From Halobaculum sp. MBLA0147 (lineage in GTDB: Archaea > Halobacteriota > Halobacteria > Halobacteriales > Haloferacaceae), in NCBI RefSeq assembly GCF_041361345.1, contig NZ_JBGKAD010000001.1:1-64000 (forward strand): a stretch of DNA of 64,000 nt, read 5' to 3'. Below, in pieces: positions 32,456 to 63,315 of this stretch; the first letter of the stretch is position 1; every line of letters begins with the position of its first letter. Under the pieces are notes generated by a model, which saw only the letters and a program-made list of their open reading frames with translations, searched no databases and was not told the origin of the DNA. A program made the translations under genes and the position numbers.

Positions 32456-32695
32456 GCGAGCGGCACCGCGACGGGGCGGTCTCGGGCGCGCCGCCGCGTC
32501 GCACACACACTCGACATCCAGACACTCCCGTGGGCGCAGGTGGCCACGGGGGTGTCACCCAGCCGACCGCGGGCGGTCGGCAGCGCCCCTCGACAGTGGG
32601 TCGCGTCGACGGCGGGTGTGAGCCCTCGGGACTGGGCATCACCGGGGGACGCCTCGACGCGAACCTTCTTTCTCGCCGCGCGTGAACCGCGAGTC

Positions 32696-33895
32696 GTGAC
32701 AGTCGACGGCGCGAACGGAGACGACGGAGACGACGGCACAGACGGAGCCGACGGAGAGGGATCCGACGGCGCGAACGGAGACGACGTGGGTACCACACCG
32801 GAGCGGCGACGGACGCGAGACGCACAGCGGCGGCTCCGCGAGCGAGGTGCGGACGCGCTGGTCCTGTTCCCGAGTCCGAACCTGCGGTACACGACCGGGT
32901 TCGACGAGGAGCCGAGCGAACGACACCTGCTTGCGTTCCTCCCCGCAGAGGGAGACCCGACGTTGCTCGTCCCGGAGCTGTACGACGAACAGGTGCGCCG
33001 CGAGTCGTGGATCGAGGACGTGCGGACGTGGGCCGACGCCGACGATCCGACCGCTCGCGTCGCCGGGATCGTGACGGAACTGGATCTAGACGGTGGCCAC
33101 CTGTTGGTCGACGACACGATGCACGCGCGATTCACGCAGGACCTCCGTGCGGCTGCGCCGGACGCGACGTTCGGGCTCGCGAGCGAGATCCTGGCACCGC
33201 TGCGCGTCCGGAAAGACGAGACGGAACGGGACGCGCTGCGGCGTGCCGCCGCGGTCGCGGACGCCGTCGTCGACGACCTGCGAGCGCTCGGCCCCGAGGT
33301 GGTCGGGTGGACGGAACGCGAACTCGCGACGGAGGTCGCGGACCGCCTCGCGGCCCACGGCGGCACGGGTGTCTCCTTCGAGGTGATCGCCGGCTCCGGA
33401 CCGAACGGGGCGATGCCACACCACACACACGGCGACCGCGAGATCCAGGCTGGCGAGCCGGTGGTTCTCGACTTCGGGACGTGGGTGGACGGCTACCCCT
33501 CCGACCAGACGCGGACGCTCGTCTTCGACGGCGAGCCGAGCGAGCGCGTCCGCGAGGCCCACGACGTGGTCCGGCGCGCACAGCAGGCGGGTGTCGACGC
33601 CGTCGAACCGGGGGTCACGGCCGGTGCCGTCGACGCGGCGGCCCGCGAGGTGATCGCAGACGCCGGCTACGGCGACGCGTTCCTCCACCGCACCGGGCAC
33701 GGGGTCGGCCTGGAGGTCCACGAGGAGCCGTACCTCGTCGCCGGCAGCGAGCGCGAACTCGAACCCGGGATGGTGTTCAGCGTCGAACCGGGCGTGTACC
33801 TGGAGGGGGAGTTCGGCGTCCGGATCGAGGACTTGGTGATCGTCACAGAGGACGGGGCCGAGCGGCTCAACGAGACGGACCGTGGCTGTTTATAA
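32696..33895 (+). CDS. Xaa-Pro aminopeptidase family protein (M24)
   Basis: Pita-bread-fold metallopeptidase, 399 aa. The N-terminal creatinase-like domain starts near residue 45. The five metal ligands are visible: Asp in LDFGTWVDG and in PSDQTRT, His in [15 protein letters not shown], Glu in SVEPGVY and Glu in VRIEDLVIV. The GTG at 32696 is preferred because a TATA-like CTTCTTT lies near -27. An Asp/Gly leader follows. The C-terminus ends CL at TTATAA, right at the edge of a low-G+C islet, so the last residues may have been changed by an insertion. Confidence 0.9.
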
Positions 33896-33928
33896 AAGAA
33901 GGAATTCCAGTGCCACTCCAGAGCCAAC

Positions 33929-33936
33929 TTTTATAA
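33929..33936 (+). promoter_or_regulatory. TATA box of the islet AbrB-like gene
   Basis: TTTTATAA lies 24-31 bases before the ATG at 33960, ideal spacing for a leaderless archaeal transcript. Confidence 0.7.
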
Positions 33937-33959
33937 CATGAGACAGTCAAGACGCACTC

Positions 33960-34646
33960 ATGCCACGGTTCGACGACGACCGAACAGAGTCGGTCCGAAC
34001 AGTGAAAAAGAGGCTTCGAGATCGGGGCAGCGGGGTGTCGTTAGAGTTCGGGTCGTCGTTCGCTACGGCCTACAATCTCGACCCAGAGACGGAGGTCGAG
34101 GTCACCGTCGTCGAGACCGACGGCGACGTGTCGTTCGAGATCAGTGATATTCCAGCCGGGTTCGACTACGAGCAGTTGGTGGGATTCGCTGCCGATCACG
34201 GATGGACGAAGACGGACGAGTACGTCGACGAGAATCGTAACGAGTGGTTCCTCACTTACCGCACCGACAGCGGATCGGTCGCAGTCGAGGTTGACTCCGA
34301 GTCACACATCGACAACAACGTCGTCAACAACGTGACGATCCGTGGCGATCCAGTCGACGTCACACACGACTACTCCCGGTACGCGAACATGTGTGCAGCG
34401 GCACAGCGAGTCGGCGCGACGGTCGACCTGACAGACAGTGGTGGAGTGTGGGAGCGACTCCGTAGTCGTCCCGGGAACTCGGGTGATGCAGGACCGGACC
34501 CAGAGACGTTCGATCAGTTGAGCGAGGCTGCGGAGGTGGTCACCGCGAGCCTCGTCTACAGCTGTTCGTCACTCCACACGAGTCTGGAGACTATCGGACG
34601 TGTCGCGAAACGTCTCGACGACGAGTACCCGAGATTCGACGAGTGA
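33960..34646 (+). CDS. unknown protein with AbrB-like N-terminus (islet)
   Basis: A 228-aa protein with no family I recognise over its full length. Residues 12-62 (VKKRLRDRGSGVSLEFGSSF then YNLDPETEVEVTVVE and DVSFEIS) have the pattern of an AbrB/MazE swapped-hairpin domain, so dimerisation or DNA binding is plausible. Residues 65-135 form a second alpha/beta segment. The C-terminus is helical. Base composition is clearly lower in G+C than the neighbours. It converges on the P-loop gene with only 9 bases between the stops. Together they form a small accessory islet. Confidence 0.6.
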   Translation: MPRFDDDRTESVRTVKKRLRDRGSGVSLEFGSSFATAYNLDPETEVEVTVVETDGDVSFEISDIPAGFDYEQLVGFAADHGWTKTDEYVDENRNEWFLTYRTDSGSVAVEVDSESHIDNNVVNNVTIRGDPVDVTHDYSRYANMCAAAQRVGATVDLTDSGGVWERLRSRPGNSGDAGPDPETFDQLSEAAEVVTASLVYSCSSLHTSLETIGRVAKRLDDEYPRFDE

Positions 34647-34655
34647 CAGACCACT

Positions 34656-35249
34656 CTACCTACGCTCCGACATCGACAGTAGGTCCTTGGCTACCGTCTT
34701 CAGGATTCGACGTGTCTTGTCGTCGTACGCGGCCGTCTCGTCGCTCTCGAAGTCGGCGTTGTGAACGCTCCGAACGACCGCCTCTCCCGCATCGCGGTCG
34801 GTCCACTCGACCGTCTCGTCTTCGTCCAACACAGTCGTCAACTCGAAGCACAGCTCCAGGTCGTTCTCCGCCGCGAACGCCCGCCACTCGGCAGCGTCGT
34901 CTAGCCGCTCGTCGCTGACGACGAGAATCATCGCGTCTGCCGGTTCGACGAGGACCTCCGTCTTGTCGTCGATGAGACCGGGGGTATCGGCGAGAACTAA
35001 CTGCTCGTCTCGTGCTGCGAACATCGCCCTCCGCTCTTGGGCACGCTCCATCGTCCAGTCCACATCTCGATCGTACTCGTCCGAACTCTGTAGCATCGCC
35101 GGGAGTGACGTGTCGGTGATGTCGAGGGTCGACCAACTGAACGTTGGATTGTACCCTCGTCTACGCTTCCGTTCTCGACACAACTTGACGAGTGCTGCGG
35201 TAATAGTACTCTTCCCAGAGTTCGGAGGGCCACCGACGACTGTGTGCAT
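34656..35249 (-). CDS. P-loop NTPase of unknown function (islet)
   Basis: A 197-aa protein beginning MHTVVGGPPNSGKST, with Walker A at residues 7-14 and a G3-like ADTPG at 87-91. Later come LVVSDERLDDAAEWRAF and a C-terminal helical part. It lacks an NKxD guanine motif, so it is not a standard GTPase. The opening, the ADTPG position and the following hydrophobic strand plus Trp recall P-loop proteins found fused to or beside Csx3 in type III CRISPR loci, but no CRISPR genes are nearby and this match is weak. Lower G+C than the neighbours. Confidence 0.65.
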   Translation of the reverse strand: MHTVVGGPPNSGKSTITAALVKLCRERKRRRGYNPTFSWSTLDITDTSLPAMLQSSDEYDRDVDWTMERAQERRAMFAARDEQLVLADTPGLIDDKTEVLVEPADAMILVVSDERLDDAAEWRAFAAENDLELCFELTTVLDEDETVEWTDRDAGEAVVRSVHNADFESDETAAYDDKTRRILKTVAKDLLSMSERR

Positions 35250-35264
35250 ACCACGACTTGTTGA

Positions 35265-35300
35265 CTGCTACATATAAGGTTTTATTTTATTTCGTAGCAG
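35265..35300. repeat. inverted repeat with A/T-rich loop at the islet edge
   Basis: CTGCTAC (35265-35271) and GTAGCAG (35294-35300) form a perfect 7-bp inverted repeat around a 22-base loop of almost pure A/T. The minus-strand TATA (TTATAT, 35272-35277) of the P-loop gene lies in the loop, 23-28 bases before its ATG. It could be an operator or a mark of the islet boundary. Confidence 0.5.
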
Positions 35301-35317: not shown

Positions 35318-37447
35318 TCAGTCGGCGGTCGGCAACCGGACGGACACCCGGTTCCCGCCGAGTGGGCTCTCCGCGAACGAGAGGTCGCCGCCGGAGACGG
35401 TGACGATCCAGTTGACGAACCACAGTCCCAACCCACCGGCGTGTTCCAGCCGACTCTCCGCGCCACCCAGCGCCTCCACCTCGCCCGGTGGGATCTGCTC
35501 GCAGTCGTCGTCGACGTGGATCACGACTGCCGTCGGTCGATCGCCCGACTCGGACGCCTTCGTCCCGCCGTCGCCGGCGGTCACCGGCCGTTCCGGCGGA
35601 TCGTGTGTCACCTCGAACTCGATCCGCACGCGCGGCGTCTCGGCGTCGCTGTGACGCACCGCGTTGTCGAGGAGTTCGTTGATCGCGTCGGCCAACGCGT
35701 CGACGGCCGTCACGGCGGTGTCCGGCGGTTCCGCGACCGTCAGGTCGACGGTCGGCTCGCACTCCGTCTCGGCCTCGCCGGCGGGCGAGGCGTCCAGATC
35801 CGACACCGCACGCCGGATCGCCTCCTCCACGTCGAGCGCCACGGGTTCGTGACTCTCGCCGAGGACTCGGTCGACCTTCCGGGCGAGGACCCCCAACCGG
35901 TCGAGCTCCATCCCGACGCGGCGGATCTCGCTCGCGTGGTCGGTCGCCGTCGGATTCTCGAGCGTCTCCACCAGCGCCGCCGCGTGGCCGACGATCACGT
36001 TCGTCCGGTTGCGGAGGTTGTGCCTGAGGATGCGGTTGAGCACGGAGAGGCGCTCCTCGCGGCGGACGCGGTCGGAGATGTCGCGCCCGGTTCCGACCAG
36101 TCCGGTCACCTCCCCGTCGCCGTCGGTGAGCGGCGCACCGTTGAGTTGGTAGGGAATCTCCTCGCCGTCGGCCGTGACCAACGTGGACTCGACCGTCTGT
36201 GACTCCTCGTTCAGGTAGACCCGTTGCATCGCCGTGAGGATCTCCTCGTGGTCGTCCGTCGGGACCAACTCCGTCGCGTGCATCCCCTCCAAGTCGCCGT
36301 CGTCGTACCCCACCACGTCGGGGAGGCGGGCGTTCCACTCCACGAAGTTCCCGGCGTCGTCGAGGACGTAGAACACGTCCGGCTGGGCGTCGAGCACGCT
36401 CGCGACGTACGCCTCCTGTTCGCGGAGCCGTTCCCGCTGGCGCTCGCGTTCCGTCACGTCGCGTCGGTTGACGATCAGCCCCCCGACGGCGGGGTTGTCG
36501 AACTGGACGTTCCCGACGGCCTCGATCCACCGCCAGGAGCCGTCCGCGTGCCGGCGTCGGTACGTCGCGTGTGCGATGCTCCCGTCCGGCTGTTCGACGA
36601 GTTCCTCGAACTGTTCTCTGACGGCCGCCCTGTCGTCCGGGTGGACGTGTTCCAAGACGTTCTCGCCTCTGAGTTCCGCGGGCGAGTAGCCGAGTTGGTC
36701 TTCGACCGCCGGGGTGTTGTACAGTGCGACCGCGTCCTCGTCGACGACGCTCATCGAGTCCGTCGAGTACTCGAGCACCGTGTCGAACCACTCGCGCTGT
36801 CGGACCCGTCTCGCACGAGCGCGGTGTTCCTCGGCGACCCGGCGAGTGCGCTCACGGAGGAGTCGCTCCGCCGCAGGATCACTCGCCCGGACACACTCGG
36901 TGACACCCGCCTCCAACAGCGGCGCCACGTCCGTGTCGACCTCGACGACCGCGACGACGGGCGGCGACGACGAGGCAGCGGCGCACACGTCCGTCGGGTC
37001 GACACCGGCGGCGTCCGCGACGACACAGTCCCACTCGGGTCCCACGACGAGTGGGTCGTCGGAGTCGTCGCCGGCGTCCAGATCCGCGGGGTCGTCACCG
37101 CCACCTGGGTTCGCTCTGTCGCCGCCCGTATCCAGGTTCGATCCGTCGTCTACTGCGCCCGCGTCCGCTCCACCGTCAACGTCGAGACGCTCGACTCGCA
37201 GCGACTCGGCGCTGGCGAGCCACGTGACGCCCCGATCACCACCGACGACCGCGACGGCCAGCCGCTCGCCGCCGTCCGAGTCTCCGGAGGCCCGTCCGAC
37301 TCGCGACGTGGCTCCGGTCGTCCCGTCGTCGGCTCCCGCGCCGGCAGCCGGGTGACGCGACCACCGTGTCTCGACACCGGCACTGTCCTCACCACTCCGC
37401 CGGTGCTCGTCGACGGCGTCGTCTTCCGGCCCGGTCCCACCGACCAT
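35318..37447 (-). CDS. PAS-domain sensor histidine kinase
   Basis: A 709-aa cytoplasmic sensor kinase. There are no clear membrane helices. The order is Asp/Gly-rich leader with a receiver-like remnant (60-190), PAS (222-335), PAS (345-462), dimerisation helix with phospho-acceptor His476 (LNRILRHNLRN), N-box NELLDN (590-595) and G2 box GGLGLWF (671-677). The G1 box, normally DxGxG, is DDDCEQIP (646-653), with both glycines replaced, so ATP binding may be altered. No response regulator is adjacent. An ACCTAAAC sequence lies 9 bases upstream of the start. Confidence 0.88.
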   Translation of the reverse strand: MVGGTGPEDDAVDEHRRSGEDSAGVETRWSRHPAAGAGADDGTTGATSRVGRASGDSDGGERLAVAVVGGDRGVTWLASAESLRVERLDVDGGADAGAVDDGSNLDTGGDRANPGGGDDPADLDAGDDSDDPLVVGPEWDCVVADAAGVDPTDVCAAASSSPPVVAVVEVDTDVAPLLEAGVTECVRASDPAAERLLRERTRRVAEEHRARARRVRQREWFDTVLEYSTDSMSVVDEDAVALYNTPAVEDQLGYSPAELRGENVLEHVHPDDRAAVREQFEELVEQPDGSIAHATYRRRHADGSWRWIEAVGNVQFDNPAVGGLIVNRRDVTERERQRERLREQEAYVASVLDAQPDVFYVLDDAGNFVEWNARLPDVVGYDDGDLEGMHATELVPTDDHEEILTAMQRVYLNEESQTVESTLVTADGEEIPYQLNGAPLTDGDGEVTGLVGTGRDISDRVRREERLSVLNRILRHNLRNRTNVIVGHAAALVETLENPTATDHASEIRRVGMELDRLGVLARKVDRVLGESHEPVALDVEEAIRRAVSDLDASPAGEAETECEPTVDLTVAEPPDTAVTAVDALADAINELLDNAVRHSDAETPRVRIEFEVTHDPPERPVTAGDGGTKASESGDRPTAVVIHVDDDCEQIPPGEVEALGGAESRLEHAGGLGLWFVNWIVTVSGGDLSFAESPLGGNRVSVRLPTAD

Positions 37448-61576: not shown

Positions 61577-61999
61577 TCACTCCCCGTCTGGGTCGTAGCG
61601 CGTACACGAGCCGTAGTTGTCGAATCCGACGCGCTCGATCCGGTCCAGTGCGTCTTCGGAGACGACGAGCACGCCGTCCGCGTCTGTGCCGACGTCGTCG
61701 CGGCCCGGCTCCCCGTCGACTCGTAGCCACCGACACGACGGCGGCGTCTGGTCCGGGTAGAGTCGCCGGAACGTCTCCGAGGCTTCCGTCGTCGCCGGGC
61801 CGAACTCGTAGCCGTCGAGTCGGGCGCGGTCCAGTTCCGTCGCCAACTGCTCGGTGACGACGAAGTGCGGGTACGACTCTAGCAGCGCGTCGCCGCGCCA
61901 CCCGTCGAAGACGTACGTCAGCGTCGGGCGGGACCCGGCGCGCCGCTCGACGGTCGCTCGTCCCGCGACTTCGGGTTCGACGCTGTAGTACTCGGTCAT
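61577..61999 (-). CDS. Imm43-like immunity protein
   Basis: A 140-aa acidic protein. LTYVFDGWRGDALLESYPHF, then VVTEQLATELDRARLDGYEF, RWLRVDGEPGRDDVG and VLVVSEDALDRI follow the pattern of the Imm43 family of polymorphic-toxin immunity proteins. Its ATG overlaps the toxin stop (ATGA at 61996-61999), so the pair is translationally coupled and the immunity protein should be made with the toxin. G+C is higher than in the toxin gene. A truncated copy lies at 60541-60755. Family assignment is from pattern recall and not from a search. Confidence 0.75.
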   Translation of the reverse strand: MTEYYSVEPEVAGRATVERRAGSRPTLTYVFDGWRGDALLESYPHFVVTEQLATELDRARLDGYEFGPATTEASETFRRLYPDQTPPSCRWLRVDGEPGRDDVGTDADGVLVVSEDALDRIERVGFDNYGSCTRYDPDGE

Positions 62000-63315
62000 C
62001 GGTTGTCACTCCTCACGGGAGGTAAAAAGTAGTGCCCGTACTTGTCGTCGATTTCTGTAGCTTTCTCCAACAGCTTGTCCCGTAACTCCGCGGAAGGAGT
62101 TCCGTCTCCTTGATCGTGCTTCCGGTAGAATTGGTTCCACTTCATCCGAATCTTACTGAGATGTAGATCGGCGTTCACCTTCGATGGTATACCGCGTAGG
62201 TTCTCAACAGAATGAATCTCACTCTCTGAGACGACCCCTGGATACCGGTCTAGTACTTGCTGTTCCACAGCGTGGTGGACTACGAAGTTCTCCCTGTCCC
62301 GAAGTTGGGGAAACTCTCGAAAGAAGTTCCGTCGATAATCAGACGAGTCTGACTCACCGAAACACGCGGGTTCACCTGCAATAGGGTGGTTACCGAGGCT
62401 ATCAGGGGAGTCGTACAGTTCGTCTGGTGGCTGTCCGAGCTCCCAGTCTGGAAGTCGCTGGATGTGTAAATCCAGGGGACTACGATCGTCGGGTCTGCTC
62501 CACCGCGAGAGGGTCGTTATCTGACGAGTGTCGTCAACGGCTCCCCCGGTCGCCGAAGTCACGACACTGTTCGGACCGAGAAACGGTAGAACAGAAGCGT
62601 CGTAATTTGTGTCCGTCTGCTGGCGAACATGAGCTAGTTCGTGGACGAGGATGTGTTGACCGTGTAACGAATCTGGGTCGTACGCGCCACGACCGAACAC
62701 GATGTGATTTCCGATGGTGAATGCTCTGGCATCTAGTTCTGCAGCCGCCGCTGTTGCACGGTGTCCAGTGTGAATACGTACCTCGGGCACCTTTTCACCG
62801 AGTCGATCTTCCACCACTTGTCGAATCTCACCGTCCAACGCCTCTCCCGGTGAGGAGAGAACTCGCCTGACACACTCTGGGAGAGCCGTTGTTCCTGCGG
62901 GTTCCATCTCACTCGTGGCGGCCACACTCCGCCGTTTCGACCGACGATTACGCCGTTCGACATCCCACGGAATTGGTGTGTCCTCTCTAGCACGCCAGCG
63001 TCGTCGTTTCTTGAAATCGTTCGCGACGGCTAGTGGCATTCCCTCTTTGATCCTGTCGTGTACCGCATCTGGGGCGTTCGCCTCCATCCGTAACAGGCGA
63101 ACGACATCTAGATCGTCCAGTTCACCGTACATCTCCTCTGCTAGCCGACGTGTTTTCTTCGAGAGTTGTTCGGGTTCTATGTCGTTGCGTGACGAATACG
63201 CCACTCTGCGTCGTTCCGTATCATCTCGTGTCTCTGCGTCCGACTTCGACTGCTCTCCGTCGGATGCGTCGCGTCGCCGTCCACTTCGTCCGTCCCGTCT
63301 GTGTCTCCGGCCCAT
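61996..63315 (-). CDS. DUF4157 metalloprotease-like toxin with C-terminal HH nuclease-like domain
   Basis: A 439-aa multidomain effector. Residues 1-130 are charged and Arg/Lys/Glu-rich. Residues 152-235 are a DUF4157 domain (SSPGEALDGEIRQVVEDRLG) with zinc motif HELAH at 225-229. Residues 300-439 resemble a polymorphic-toxin nuclease: HH at 347-348 in FVVHHAVEQQVLDRYPG, EIHSVENLRGIP with His368 and NADLHLSKI with His385. DUF4157 proteins commonly carry toxin domains, some loaded into extracellular contractile injection systems. G+C is markedly lower than the neighbours, a sign of transfer. It is coupled to an Imm43-like gene. No injection-system genes are in the window. Confidence 0.75.
   Translation of the reverse strand: MGRRHRRDGRSGRRRDASDGEQSKSDAETRDDTERRRVAYSSRNDIEPEQLSKKTRRLAEEMYGELDDLDVVRLLRMEANAPDAVHDRIKEGMPLAVANDFKKRRRWRAREDTPIPWDVERRNRRSKRRSVAATSEMEPAGTTALPECVRRVLSSPGEALDGEIRQVVEDRLGEKVPEVRIHTGHRATAAAAELDARAFTIGNHIVFGRGAYDPDSLHGQHILVHELAHVRQQTDTNYDASVLPFLGPNSVVTSATGGAVDDTRQITTLSRWSRPDDRSPLDLHIQRLPDWELGQPPDELYDSPDSLGNHPIAGEPACFGESDSSDYRRNFFREFPQLRDRENFVVHHAVEQQVLDRYPGVVSESEIHSVENLRGIPSKVNADLHLSKIRMKWNQFYRKHDQGDGTPSAELRDKLLEKATEIDDKYGHYFLPPVRSDNR

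Follow-up and report, generated by a model that had tools for sequence, protein, structure and literature searches.

A rare, mobile gene pair of haloarchaea that places a Csx3-type NTPase family in a new partnership

Introduction

What might two convergent genes, clearly poorer in G+C than the DNA around them, do for the haloarchaeon that carries them? The question is raised by a locus of Halobaculum sp. MBLA0147, at positions 33,896 to 35,300 of the 64,000-nt stretch of its genome that was analysed (the window, which means this whole stretch and in which the coordinates of genes A and B are counted). A preliminary description of the locus, made from the letters alone, saw an accessory islet in which a protein with an AbrB/MazE-like start (the product of gene A) converges on a P-loop NTPase (the product of gene B), and suggested a small defence or toxin-antitoxin module. 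The answer developed below is that A and B constitute a rare, mobile two-gene module, and that B, which stands alone, is by its sequence homologous to the NTPase domain that is fused to, or placed beside, the ring nuclease Csx3/Crn3 in type III CRISPR systems. The NTPase family is known; its partner here is new. As for function, the accessory module is most likely one of virus defence or superinfection exclusion, a reading to which we assign a probability of roughly 0.4.

A convergent pair in three genera

Genes A and B lie together in three genomes, each of a different haloarchaeal genus: that of the window, Haloarcula amylolytica JCM 13557 (L017) and the Halobacteriales metagenome-assembled genome (MAG) QH_7_65_31 (L018). 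The genes are convergent in all three and their 3' ends abut, overlapping by 3-4 bases in H. amylolytica and lying 5 bases apart in QH_7_65_31; the 9-base separation of the stop codons in the window had been read correctly at the outset. In both H. amylolytica and QH_7_65_31 the proteins share 45% (A) and 48% (B) identity with those of the window. Since homologues at 43-50% identity exist in other genomes, A and B are real genes, and since the same convergent pair recurs and its H. amylolytica copy resides in a provirus, they are to be regarded as a rare mobile module, in keeping with the accessory two-gene unit first proposed.

The rarity is pronounced. Of 60 relatives 2 carry gene A, as do 3 of 392 genomes from the order; these samples overlap, and both tallies include the genome of the window. 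A scan across 84,980 species located A at three loci; it relies on short conserved peptides, so that divergent copies may escape it. Close homologues of B are present in five genomes. Plasmid and phage collections yielded no A, and B only in the form of distant Csx3-AAA proteins on Nostoc plasmids; the H. amylolytica provirus was the only occurrence found among viral contigs.

The composition of the two genes is foreign-looking. The surrounding window is haloarchaeal, with ~70% G+C, and its 46 called genes have a mean G+C content of 0.697 (standard deviation 0.039); A stands at 0.600, the second-lowest value of the 46, and B at 0.604. At third codon positions the two genes are at 0.73-0.75, against 0.86 in both neighbours. 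The preliminary description was thus right about the position of two lower-G+C genes. (The lowest G+C content in the window, 0.55, belongs to a 378-aa gene at 61996-63132, possibly a further foreign islet.)

The setting in H. amylolytica is particularly informative. The pair sits there in a 47-kb IMG/VR virus record, a tailed-virus provirus recognised by its terminase and portal genes; Cdc6/Orc1 and ParB-like genes are present as well. A type IIG restriction-modification enzyme ends 1.3 kb from B, and the G+C contents of enzyme and B are 0.498 and 0.501; the type IIG enzyme, A and B together span 0.50-0.53, with the Cdc6 gene that lies between them at 0.64. This combination of provirus and type IIG enzyme, seen in one genome, points more strongly than anything else to defence or superinfection exclusion, and it supports mobility and a defence-like setting of the module first proposed. 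(The provirus, at ~172-220 kb of contig 47 (L017/L040-L042), also carries an XPB-like helicase gene and a TnpB-like transposase gene.)

Gene B

The only Pfam match of B is to an unspecific P-loop GTPase family (MMR_HSR1, E 2.3e-6), and a sequence search of the PDB gave weak P-loop matches for B and none for A. PADLOC identifies B as a Csx3-associated NTPase with an E value of 1.2e-11 (3.5e-18 for its best relative), and the Csx3 models of that library match all four B proteins; a likeness that had at first been called weak is in fact strong. A plasmid search with the H. amylolytica protein led to Nostoc proteins annotated as Csx3, and in two of these plasmid records the gene for a Csx3-NTPase fusion immediately follows a short Csx3 gene, within a type III CRISPR locus. 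The NTPase kinship of B holds; the CRISPR link does not. RAMP proteins (PF03787) were found in none of the six genomes that carry A or B, in a search whose control was positive in 4 of 14, and cas1 is present in three of the six, without RAMPs.

The structure model of B (mean pLDDT 76, with low confidence over residues 31-100) has ParF, MinD and ParA as its nearest folds (TM 0.5-0.63). No known toxin fold appears among the structural matches of the model.

Gene A

Gene A has no assignment in Pfam, NCBIfam, PADLOC or PHROGs, and it is the structure model that gives an idea of its nature. Built on four sequences, the model has a mean pLDDT of 78.9 and exceeds 90 across much of its middle. Foldseek ranks first 3cxj, an uncharacterized methanogen protein, followed by DR1245, YbjN, ExsC, CesT and AmyR; eight of the nine best matches have the YbjN/type III secretion chaperone fold, the topology of which has been described (PMC3575483). 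Since the leading matches agree with one another and the helices and strands succeed each other as in this fold, the model speaks for a predicted YbjN/type III secretion chaperone-like domain at residues ~66-225, albeit with weak E values (0.011 at best). A has no sequence match to PF10722, and none to a haloarchaeal YbjN-like profile made from a poor comparison set (one of its four rows is in the wrong frame); a BFVD fold search turned up nothing convincing.

Two side observations touch on this family. PF10722 (YbjN) is matched three times (L077, L079, L080) in another genome of the genus, G003, and in only one other genome among 40 relatives. In Deinococcus, homologues of the YbjN-like DR1245 are reported to adjoin a Xaa-Pro dipeptidase gene (PMC3575483), and A adjoins an M24 peptidase gene in two genomes of its genus; this likeness is possibly a coincidence, as the M24 gene is absent beside the pair in H. 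amylolytica and QH_7_65_31.

The first 70 residues of A, in which the weakly AbrB-like part spans ~12-62, align in register with haloarchaeal AbrB domains and exceed 200 of 200 column shuffles, but at a probability of only 23% and with no Pfam match. The AbrB/MazE-like start that the preliminary description saw in A remains weak; we treat it as a lead and not as a result.

The locus

The features of the locus are collected in Table 1. Each gene has its own TATA box, as originally described, and a box 23-30 bases before the ATG fits haloarchaeal leaderless promoters. Scans for sigma-70 promoters and terminators gave no result useful for an archaeon. The inverted repeat that had been remarked on at one edge of the islet fared less well: shuffled sequence yields repeats about as good (p 0.075), and its arms are not conserved at the other loci. 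Promoter inverted repeats were therefore rejected as a common operator. The gene to the right of the M24 gene differs among three genomes of the genus, being a superoxide dismutase gene in G001 (which has neither A nor B), an HTH regulator in G003 and the A/B islet in the window, which makes this a variable spot.

Table 1. Genes, promoter elements and neighbours at the A/B locus (window coordinates)
Feature	Position	Strand	Remarks
Left neighbour, M24 (Xaa-Pro) peptidase	32540-33895	+	conserved in the genus
TATA box of gene A, TTTTATAA	33930-33937	+	23-30 bases 5' of ATG, read from sequence
Gene A	33960-34646	+	228 aa
Gap between the A and B stop codons	34647-34655		9 bases; genes convergent
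Gene B	34656-35249	-	197 aa; P-loop NTPase, Walker A GGPPNSGKST, DTPG as Walker B/G3
Inverted repeat CTGCTAC-22-GTAGCAG	35265-35300		covers the promoter of B; not significant
TATA-like box of gene B, TTATAT	35272-35277	-	~23-28 bases 5' of ATG, read from sequence
Right neighbour, PAS/HATPase sensor histidine kinase	35318-37447	-	high G+C, outside the module

What the module might do

The observations that support a role in virus defence or superinfection exclusion are the recurrence of the pair, abutting and convergent, in three haloarchaeal genera, its G+C content, and its company of provirus and type IIG enzyme in H. amylolytica. A mechanism can be sketched. A would be an adaptor or sensor that combines a DNA- or ligand-binding front end (the AbrB-like segment) with a peptide-binding, chaperone-like domain that might recognise a target or hold B. 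B would be an NTP-driven switch or effector, acting through NTP binding and hydrolysis, perhaps on nucleotides or proteins, with its state controlled by A, and the separate promoters would allow the two proteins to be produced independently. A place for TY-chaperones in bacterial conflict systems has been proposed (PMC9503650), and this makes such a mechanism plausible, if unproven. A more specific version, in which an orphan Csx3-AAA NTPase, freed from cyclic-oligoadenylate signalling, works with a dedicated AbrB-like/chaperone-fold partner as an undescribed archaeal antiviral module, must be considered doubtful.

Several observations weigh against a role in defence, or against so close a partnership. 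Gene A has no match in defence libraries, and its Foldseek E values (0.011-0.2, from the four-sequence model) are weak. Only one of the three pairs is in a recognised provirus. The A-B pairing is also not obligate. The preliminary description had reasoned that consistent occurrence of the genes apart from each other would speak against a module; they are together in three genomes and apart in three, A alone in one and B alone in two (one copy frameshifted), which counts in part against it. The solitary A, in G003 of the same genus, is at the opposite side of the same M24 gene. One solitary B lies beside purL in G133, a member of another family, and the other occupies the same purL-side position in G128, where it is frameshifted (L020:9450-10078). 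(In G133 a gene for a 228-aa protein without a Pfam or PADLOC match, at L019:8547-9233, lies upstream of the solitary B.)

The main rival, which we consider unlikely without dismissing it, is a mobile regulatory or physiological module that is not itself directly involved in defence. In this reading B would work as an NTP switch of the ParA/MinD/GPN kind, with A as adaptor, and the two would serve, for example, regulation or, in a ParA-like manner, the maintenance of the carrier element. In its favour are the folds nearest to the B model (ParF, MinD and ParA), the Cdc6/Orc1 and ParB-like genes on the H. amylolytica element, and the persistence of a solitary B next to purL on a chromosome from a different family, which is not typical of a gene dedicated purely to defence. 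However, B does not have the deviant Walker A motif of ParA and MinD (KGGxGK), its sequence kinship is with Csx3-AAA rather than with ParA, and no centromere-like repeats were found at the A/B locus.

The toxin-antitoxin pair that had been suggested, with A as an AbrB/MazE-like antitoxin neutralising B as the toxin, is improbable. It would make sense of an AbrB-like start that outscores every column shuffle, and of a module that is two-gene, mobile and low in G+C. A classical toxin-antitoxin operon is nevertheless unlikely because the genes are convergent and separately promoted in three of three genomes, rather than arranged as an antitoxin-first operon, and because B is unaccompanied in G133 (as A is in G003). 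Moreover, the P-loop NTPase B shows neither a known toxin fold nor one known for a MazE partner, and a conserved operator-like repeat is lacking.

Two further explanations carry still less weight. That A and B are unrelated passenger genes is quite improbable: each is indeed found without the other, but chance abutment as an account of the pair is refuted by the recurrence of two very rare genes, in the same abutting convergent layout, in three independent genomic contexts. A and B could all the same be functionally independent of each other. Least credible is that B and a remote Cas locus act together in cyclic-oligoadenylate (type III CRISPR) signalling, a role that the homology of B to the Csx3-AAA NTPase would suggest but that the absence of type III effectors largely refutes, the cas1 gene of the window's genome lying ~710 kb from the pair and a search of the genomes for Csx3 having found no match (a result that is weak alone, because its control had no match either).

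We return to the A/B pair as a possible module of virus defence or superinfection exclusion. If it does protect against viruses, it would be a new archaeal defence pair, with an A family that lies outside every library used here. Should the specific version with an orphan Csx3-AAA NTPase be true, that NTPase would serve immunity in its own right, without need of CRISPR or of the Csx3 ring nuclease. Standalone copies of the NTPase, with a different partner and without type III CRISPR, provide a simple two-gene setting for probing what the NTPase does.

Comparison with known systems

The nearest known system is Csx3-AAA, the function of whose NTPase domain is not known (PMC7371418, PMC12409355). 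B is colinear with the NTPase part of these proteins over its whole length (the GPPxSGKS motif, D-x-G-G/D-x-P-G and the C-terminal blocks). It differs in being the NTPase alone, with a Csx3/Crn3 domain neither fused to it nor encoded by any neighbour, and in having as its partner the unrelated protein A. The ParA/MinD (SIMIBI) NTPases are the best structural matches of the B model, but B has GGPPNSGKST in place of their deviant Walker A, KGGxGK[ST].

Protein A can be compared with two families. The pattern VSL-x(n)-A-x-x-Y-x-L-D-P-x-T-x-V at its N-terminus is in the register of AbrB/MazE/SpoVT domains (PF04014), but A scores below every curated cut-off and the ten true AbrB proteins of the genome score far higher. 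The YbjN proteins and type III secretion chaperones (DR1245, AmyR, CesT and ExsC) account for nearly all leading Foldseek matches of A, which differs from them in its additional N-terminal domain.
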